Positions 11,741 through 12,809 of a stretch of 64,000 nucleotides of DNA are shown here, piece after piece; the stretch's first letter is position 1, and each line of letters begins with the position of its first letter. The notes below the pieces were generated by a model, which saw nothing but the letters and a program-made list of their open reading frames with translations, ran no database searches and had not been told where the DNA came from. Position numbers and translations under genes: made by a program. Source of the stretch: Austropuccinia psidii (Eukaryota; Basidiomycota; Pucciniomycetes; Pucciniales; Sphaerophragmiaceae); assembly GCA_023105745.1 (NCBI GenBank), contig JALGQZ010000002.1:46660497-46724496 (forward strand). The letters run 5' to 3'.

Positions 11741-12809
11741 TGGAAGAAAACTACATCCCACTTGAAACCCAGTCACAGGCCAACACACCAGTGACACCCT
11801 CAGAACCAGAGGGCAGCAAGGGTAAAGGAAAAAGGCTTAGTGAAGGCCTCATTACAGCCAAGAAGTGGACACCAATAGCCACTCAGAGGAGTAGAAAACC
11901 ACGAAACTCTGCTTCAATACAAGGTAAACCAACCTTAACCACTTGTACAGGAAAGATTACAATTATTAACCCAGTTGTAACCTCCAAAGGCAAACTGCCC
12001 AAATCAGCAGATAACAAATTTGTACAAGGCACATTCAAAGGTCAATACCCTAAGAACATAAAGTTTTTGACTGCTTGCAAACACTGATATGTCCCCTGCA
12101 TACCTCAGAGACCTTGGCTTCCAAAGGAACCAGCCAGAGGATAGAGCAGGAATGTCTAGAACCAGAAGACCTGAAAGAAGACACATTGGACACAGTGGTG
12201 GATGGCAAAACAATGAGGGAGATAATATCAACCTTGCCATTCACACTCCAGTTCAACAGAAACCTCAAACCAGAGGACTGGAAGGATATGGATCAAGTTC
12301 TTCAAATCCACCAACTCCTCAAAGATTTGTTTCAATGGAGCATGGACAACAAGAGGTTCAACCTAGCAACTCACTGGGCAGAACTGGGATCAAGTTGCCA
12401 GAAGATCTGTCTCAAAGAGATAGACTTCAAAGACCTTATGGTAATCACCAAGGGTTGGAATCCTACCAGGCAGCACAGACTCCTGGAGGCAAGGGCACAG
12501 AGGATAAGGGAGAATCAAGCCACTATCCAAGCTATAGAAGAACAGTTAACCCAGACAGGGCCTACTCAGATTCCTTCAGGTTCACAAGGAGCATGCCAAA
12601 TCAGCTCTCCAGTGGCTTCACACCATTCAGAAACCAGCAGATCAGTGGCCAAGAGTCACCATTCTTCACAATTCCAGGAAGTTTCCAGGAGAAGACAAGG
12701 CAACAAGGGCAAGAACAAAGCCTCCTTCAACCAGAGGAGGAAAGAGTCAGACCCCATGATCCAGAAGCTGTTAGATTTGGTAAAAGAAGTACACAAGAAC
12801 CAGAAGTAG
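11741..12809 (+). CDS. Element B spliced accessory protein (ORF1+ORF2, 333 aa predicted)
   Basis: Predicted exons 11741-12040 and 12109-12809, plus the A of the start codon at 11191. The total of 1002 nt is in frame. Residues 1-100 are polar and basic (PLETQSQANTP, GSKGKGKR, TQRSRKPRNS). Residues 101-333 come from the frame overlapping gag: an acidic stretch (LEPEDLKEDT), the segment LLKDLFQWSMDNKRF, an RIRENQATIQAIEEQ helix-like part, then a basic run (RRRQGNKGKNK) and a short tail ending KNQK. I do not recognise a family. It may be a nucleic-acid-binding regulator or a Gag-related factor (inference). It depends on splicing of both introns. If intron 2 is retained, only a 115-residue ORF1 product ending ACKH is made. 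Confidence 0.55.
12041..12108 (+). other. Predicted intron 2 of element B (68 nt), containing the gag start
   Basis: The donor is TTCAAAG|GTCAAT (GTAAAT in A, GTAAAG in E), the branch-like CTGAT lies at 12084-12088 and the acceptor is TACCTCAG|AG. Within it lie the ORF1 stop TGA (12085-12087), one spacer base and the gag ATG (12089-12091). The donor here is weaker than in A and E. Confidence 0.55.

Follow-up and report, generated by a model that had tools for sequence, protein, structure and literature searches.

The DNA analyzed here, a 64,000-nucleotide (nt) stretch of the genome of the rust fungus Austropuccinia psidii (the window), contains element B, which is bounded by two long terminal repeats (LTRs) with TG..CA ends and a 5-bp target-site duplication (TSD), TTTTT (Table 1). 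Its frames gave Pfam matches to zf-CCHC (22.5 bits, cut-off 20.8), RVT_1 (99.3), RT_RNaseH (97.3), and Integrase_H2C2 (61.3). The protease and rve matches fell below the Pfam cut-offs, and the Chromo match reached 14.1 bits, under its cut-off of 25.1. The domain order gag (CCHC), reverse transcriptase (RT), RNase H, integrase is the one that Ty3/gypsy requires. Because this order occurs together with two LTRs and a 5-bp TSD, element B is, as judged from its sequence, a Ty3/gypsy LTR retrotransposon. The likely primer-binding site (PBS) was assigned by its position. An in-frame stop at 16280–16282 separates the RT/RNase H part of the Gag-Pol frame from the integrase part, and copy B looks pol-defective. 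Genome-wide searches covered the 1.015-Gb, 84-contig genome, in which 40 copies, B among them, matched 12041–12809 at 99% identity or more; this is a lower bound, 40 out of 828 candidates scored. By this identity, the element family is recently active. Two of the near-identical copies of this 769-nt stretch, L005 and L004 (C3:47411023 and C3:47415432), lie 4.4 kb apart, less than one element length. The accessible part of the genome report describes the A. psidii genome as just over 1 Gb, with 33.8% GC and more than 90% transposable elements (TEs) (PMC8063080).

A probable accessory gene lies before and across gag in element B. Its open reading frame 1 (ORF1) ends at a TGA (12085–12087), followed by one T and then by the gag ATG (12089–12091), which starts the Gag-Pol frame 12089–16282. 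Stop, spacer, and start all lie within intron 2, at coordinates that a previous sequence-only reading of this DNA had given and that were borne out in full. Joining 12040 to 12109 places ORF1 and ORF2 in one frame (phase 1), and removal of intron 1 (11192–11740) and intron 2 leaves a coding sequence (CDS) of 1002 nt (333 amino acids). The same reading had pointed out that the spliced CDS of a related copy, A, is also 1002 nt. Both lengths are exact, but the copies are homologous, and their equality is not independent evidence. Two further features had gone unnoted. A third, in-frame intron of 66 nt interrupts ORF1 (borders CAAG^GTAAAC...TCCAAAG^GCAAAC), and with all three introns out the shortest CDS is 936 nt (311 amino acids). 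Removal of intron 1 joins ...ACAA to TGGAAG, which builds the accessory ATG from A and TG within the start context ACAATGG. Intron 2 also carries a branch-like CTGAT, its A 21 nt from the intron end, and the ORF1 stop TGA lies inside this motif. From these sequences and the evidence below, we consider it very probable that this rust Ty3/gypsy element carries a splice-controlled accessory gene of the kind modeled here.

Table 1. Features of element B and of related copies within the window
Feature	Position	Strand	Remarks
5' LTR, element B	9706–11145	+	ends TGTCAG...CTGACA
Likely PBS, element B	11149–11164	+	TGGGGGCCTGGCCGTG, directly after LTR
Intron 1	11192–11740	+	549 nt, GTAAGT...TTCAG; removed in 10/20 archived copies
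ORF1 exon, first part	11741–11923	+	substitutions mostly at codon position 3
66-nt in-frame intron, exitron-like	11924–11989	+	GTAAAC...AAAG; coding if retained; gone in 11/20 archived copies
ORF1 exon, last part before intron 2	11990–12040	+	
Intron 2, element B	12041–12108	+	68 nt, donor GTCAAT, acceptor CTCAG; removed in 19/20 archived copies
ORF2 exon of accessory protein	12109–12809	+	overlaps gag in another frame; stop TAG 12807–12809
gag-pol frame, element B	12089–16282	+	zinc knuckle, sub-threshold protease match, RT, RNase H; in-frame stop at end
gag-pol frame resumed past stop	16283–17944	+	integrase, Tf2-1-like SH3, sub-threshold chromodomain
3' LTR, element B	17969–19408	+	98% identity to 5' LTR over 1444 nt
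Intron 2, copy A	1409–1476	-	donor GTAAAT; ORF1 exon 1477–1776 and ORF2 708–1408 open; in-frame gag stops
Intron-2-like stretch, distant family	49510–49580	-	71 nt, GTAAAG...CTCAG; TAA-C-ATG inside

Splicing of the element RNA is archived in the genome itself. Twenty element copies lacked introns precisely at the predicted borders: nine lacked all three, eight intron 2 only, two the 66-nt intron and intron 2, and one (L069) intron 1 only. In L069, the intron-2 donor reads TT. When the intron-2 joint was searched genome-wide with up to 2 mismatches, 19 matches were obtained versus 0 for the control, the pattern read backwards; 18 of these were element copies, including L010, L014, and L016. The intron-1 joint gave 8 matches versus 0 for the control, comprising 5 copies known already, 2 new element copies, and 1 unrelated match. 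Two junction-pattern matches, L063 and L071, arose by chance and were dropped. The archived joints read GTCAAAG^AGA for intron 2 and ACA/A + TGG, giving ATGGAAGA, for intron 1.

Copies L010, L014, and L016, fetched by a divergent relative, showed ORF1 and ORF2 without a gap and had all three introns removed. The two LTRs of L014 are 97.3% identical and flanked by the TSD TAGAC, and those of L010 are 92.4% identical and flanked by TACTC. Because both copies have two LTRs and their own 5-bp TSDs, they are, by structure, reverse-transcribed spliced RNAs. On the 3' side of L016, the LTR match covered 236 nt only and the TSD was not resolved. Half of the archived copies (10/20) keep intron 1 yet are spliced downstream. 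For 8 of them a PBS was located, 581–622 nt ahead of the ORF1 exon; the same script placed it at 45–53 nt in six fully spliced copies. On a 50-row tree, the 15 spliced rows fell in at least 12 clades; sampling of unspliced copies was sparse, which makes this number of events approximate. We rejected an origin of the intron-free copies by random deletion in view of the exact borders, the spread over at least 12 clades, and the separate TSDs of L014 and L010. These copies show that element RNA has lost three GT-AG introns by splicing. Since the search patterns select for some subfamilies and recombination between co-packaged templates may occur, the archived shares do not equal isoform abundances. 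The sequence-only reading had predicted three isoforms (unspliced, intron 1 removed, both removed); several are archived, with the intron-1-only form seen just once among the 20 copies.

Codon-level constraint was assessed on aligned element copies. Between copies A and B, intron 1 differs at 62/544 sites and the ORF1 exon at 17/300, of which 14, 1, and 2 fall at codon positions 3, 1, and 2, respectively. The gag overlap differs at 24/699 sites and gag alone at 48/707. Parsimony events were then counted over 50 rows and split into internal and terminal branches; the alignment omitted L001, L023, flank-only loci, chance matches, and duplicate fetches, and 5 of the 55 remaining rows were dropped for low coverage. 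On internal branches, events at codon positions 3/1/2 numbered 79/13/38 in ORF1a, 22/3/8 in the 66 nt (tested as 11925–11990, P = 1e-4), and 22/4/2 in ORF1b, and the third-position excess of ORF1 had P = 3e-10. The ORF1 tail present when intron 2 is retained (12047–12081) gave 9/0/1 (P = 4e-4). Within the overlap, 436, 331, and 318 events on all branches fell at ORF2 third (gag first), gag third, and gag second positions, respectively, compared with 469, 510, and 333 where gag stands alone (chi-square P = 1e-4). The most-changed class is thus gag first, or ORF2 third, in the overlap and gag third where gag is alone. Because change in the overlap peaks at ORF2 third positions, unlike in the gag-alone region, we read ORF2 as a real protein frame that probably constrains the silent sites of gag. 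The constraint and donor alignment was kept to B columns, which hides insertions; pairwise alignment of the 13 open copies (12 compared with B) found no indel in ORF1, intron 2, or the overlap. In 6 copies the first 433 gag codons are disrupted although ORF1 and ORF2 remain open, and 1 copy shows the reverse; this count is biased because L009–L038 were chosen by likeness to the accessory protein. Overall, the substitution patterns support the use of the long fusion (333 or 311 amino acids), of ORF1 with its intron-2-retained tail (115 amino acids), and of Gag-Pol. The archived joints and this constraint on the fusion bear out the earlier claim that splicing of intron 2 fuses ORF1 to ORF2 in frame and removes the gag ATG.

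The intron-2 signals are widely kept. Of 35 unspliced rows, 34 have the gag ATG and 34 a stop at 12085 (32 TGA, 2 TAA). Element B alone among these rows has the donor GTCAAT; the other 34 comprise 26 GTAAAT, 4 other GT donors (GTAAAC, GTAGAT, GTTAAT, GTAAGT), and 4 without GT. As near-identical copies L002–L008 and copy A carry GTAAAT, the B donor is a private change and probably a weaker donor, and copy B itself may splice poorly. Loss of the donor in copies that preserve ORF1 and ORF2, which would have spoken against the earlier reading, was not seen: a GT donor was found in 13/13 copies with both frames open. Donor loss occurred in 4/22 of the remaining copies, a difference from 0/13 that is not significant (P = 0.27).

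Start codons upstream of gag are scarce. With a TATA-like site at 10800, the presumed leader of B from transcription start to intron-1 donor (10845–11192) contains 0 ATGs versus 4.9 expected, and the leaders of A and L014 also lack ATGs. From the intron-1 acceptor to the gag ATG, B has 0 versus 4.5 expected. Over 34 unspliced copies, this interval holds 14 ATGs versus 167 expected by shuffling, with none in 23/34; these counts left out L001 (which is B), L010, L014, and L016 (spliced), and L023 and L027 (in which ORF1 is absent or disrupted). Unspliced B RNA has no ATG leading into ORF1, so the gag ATG would be met after two tiny upstream ORFs (uORFs; ATGs at 11212 and 11676). Once intron 1 is out, the first ATG is the accessory one and the next is the gag ATG, one base past the ORF1 stop.

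Products of this kind are already present in gene annotation. The predicted spliced product gave 701 protein matches, and the 120 listed were all from A. psidii MF-1. At least 120 such transposon proteins therefore stand as hypothetical proteins in the A. psidii gene set, which calls for caution in annotation. Among the 120 listed models, 81 cover the intron-2 joint gap-free, and the joint is used in 80 of them, with K followed by E or D in 74 and a substituted residue in 6; P0014 reads through. These exceptions were classed by reading. In models P0108 and P0120, the donor of the 66-nt intron is seemingly connected directly to the intron-2 acceptor, which may represent one more isoform. A viral-contig survey returned 25 pattern matches and no relative.

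Related elements elsewhere in the window share parts of this arrangement. Copy A (1–3808, minus strand) is the 5' part of a related element in which gag has in-frame stops and ORF1 and ORF2 are intact. A distant family has an intron-2-like stretch that, by reading, appears to have the same phase as intron 2 of B, along with a decayed ORF2-like region (48824–49525, minus strand) with 31.5% amino acid identity. Two further related elements, at 30083–35600 and 52800–60527, are rearranged or nested; in the former, the pyrimidine tract immediately preceding the intron-1 acceptor is interrupted by an insertion of about 1.8 kb (32820–34635). A different element at 36153–45225 forms a large inverted repeat pair with long ORFs (arms 36559–38558 and 43224–45224, 98–99% complementary).

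In the model we propose, the unspliced RNA would serve as genome and as Gag-Pol mRNA, its gag ATG being reached by scanning; the ATG-poor leader means that scanning alone could serve gag. Removal of intron 1 builds the accessory start codon, and removal of intron 2 deletes the gag start together with the ORF1 stop and fuses ORF1 to the gag-overlapping ORF2. The 66-nt intron is optional, with the frame kept either way. Fully spliced RNA would then yield an accessory protein of 333 or 311 residues, and the extent of splicing would set the ratio of Gag-Pol to accessory protein. A bolder version, which we regard as rather unlikely, is that a fungal transposon independently evolved a two-state program like that of complex retroviruses: a start-codon swap, an early spliced RNA encoding a regulator that protects or exports the unspliced RNA, an exitron tuning this regulator, and reverse transcription of spliced RNAs frequent enough to leave a genomic isoform record.

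Several observations weigh against the model. Archived copies attest the existence of RNAs, not their abundance or translation. The overlap signal is modest on internal branches alone (106 vs 77, P = 0.038), although in the same direction, and terminal branches, largely in decayed copies, are skewed alike (overlap 330/254/261; ORF1a 106/73/78), so part of the codon signal may be mutational bias. For periodicity in the 66 nt, two tests gave P = 0.06 and 0.004 on all branches, and the common history of the copies makes event counts only partly independent. One leader ATG each occurs in L010 and L016, and two further related LTR regions in the window have three apiece. Intron 1, itself ATG-poor, still carries 0–7 ATGs across the 34 copies (7.7–10.8 expected). 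The other 39 of the 120 MF-1 models fall short or have different donors or acceptors (e.g., P0001, P0021, P0023, P0031, P0120). The accessory protein has no Pfam family above cut-off, a PDB sequence search with it returned no relative and one chance-level match, and its structure model is poor (mean predicted local distance difference test score, pLDDT, 50.4).

Some of these points would suit splicing that is real but incidental, with cryptic introns in AT-rich RNA occasionally packaged and ORF2 a by-product of gag coding. The majority of the archived spliced copies have decayed, the whole fusion frame being open in 6 of the 18 intron-2-joint copies, and the skew on terminal branches may be partly mutational. 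We nevertheless judge this improbable: ORF1, which is outside gag, shows strong codon constraint on internal branches, the overlap allows more change at ORF2 third than at gag third positions, intron 1 builds an ATG exactly, and the layout recurs in the distant family. Ribosomal frameshifting in the 34-nt overlap (12054–12087), with splicing a minor event, is more improbable still. The ORF2 frame of B is indeed open back to 12054, but exact intron-free copies exist, 12047–12081 is read in the ORF1 frame by its third-position changes, and unspliced B RNA offers no ATG leading into ORF1; we rejected it as the way in which ORF1 and ORF2 are joined. A different question is how Gag is made. TGA-T-ATG places an upstream stop close to a downstream AUG, as in reinitiation cassettes, and termination-reinitiation there is possible. 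Gag might even come mainly from this route on intron-1-spliced RNA, with retention of intron 2 as the Gag step, a tentative proposal that is compatible with our model. The conserved stop-one base-ATG, the lack of any other ATG from the intron-1 acceptor onward in 23 of the 34 copies, the apparently constrained ORF1 tail, and the intron-1-only copy L069 fit it. Conversely, the stop overlaps the branch-like CTRAY, which confounds its conservation; L069 is one of 20 archived copies and has the donor TT; and unspliced B RNA would give gag by scanning past the two uORFs.

The role of the accessory protein can be addressed by analogy. CERV, the accessory protein of the Caenorhabditis elegans element Cer1 discussed below, weakly suggests a nuclear RNA-binding regulator that would favor unspliced genomic RNA through its export or by controlling splicing, and this is our tentative preference. 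The C-terminus has basic residues at 281–310, followed at 318 by IQKLLDLVKEV, which presumably corresponds to a class-3-like export motif; such patterns match elsewhere in the protein too, and the loose resemblance to the basic and leucine-rich parts of Rev is a lead only. A close rival, itself doubtful, is an anti-silencing or copy-number-control factor. Silencing pressure is plausible in a genome with more than 90% TEs and deaminated methylated cytosines, as stated in the accessible part of its report (PMC8063080), and no accessory domain points to RNA export. This alternative is a general inference in turn, and no family match speaks for it.

Most known accessory genes under splice control come from vertebrate retroviruses, with a few from animal and plant elements. 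The one described here lies in a recently active fungal Ty3 family, and its layout combines a start-codon swap over two introns, an intronic gag start, and a second exon that overlaps gag. Literature searches, with subscription literature mostly outside their coverage, found no fungal element with this layout, and the words gag, intron, and splic were absent from the searched portion of a rust TE paper (PMC12210899). Genomic copies of spliced RNA allowed isoforms to be read from DNA, an approach open to any large retrotransposon family.

Regulators of the Rev/Rex type are small proteins made from multiply spliced RNA that overlap a structural gene in another frame. The rust accessory protein would likewise come from multiply spliced RNA, as the counterpart of the unspliced Gag-Pol RNA, and overlap gag in another frame, but its host is fungal, and no family match was found for it. 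The resemblance to complex retroviruses proposed previously holds in logic and not in homology: no Rev/CERV-type relationship appeared among PDB sequences or above the Pfam cut-off, with no direct Rev/CERV sequence comparison made. Exitrons are frame-keeping introns inside coding exons that are coding when retained; the rust 66-nt intron is also frame-keeping and codon-periodic, although it sits in a transposon and is known from reverse-transcribed copies only. Ogre is an intron-bearing LTR element, and in BARE1 (PMC3735527) and EVADE (PMC12786077, also for Ogre) spliced subgenomic RNA alters protein ratios and encodes Gag only, according to the accessible text of these sources; rust splicing instead deletes the gag ATG and would yield a non-Gag protein. 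Additional plant ORFs, including the env-like ORF of Bagy2, are described in the accessible part of a paper as separate, sometimes spliced, and most often near the 3' end (PMC7264820), whereas the rust gene is a gag-overlapping fusion with a splice-made ATG. Cer1, as far as the accessible text goes, is a Ty3/gypsy element whose lineage-specific CERV is made from spliced mRNA and needed to export unspliced genomic RNA (PMC10309623). The rust element shares with it the Ty3/gypsy framework and a putative accessory protein from spliced mRNA; its gene differs in lying before and across gag, with splicing that swaps the start codons.
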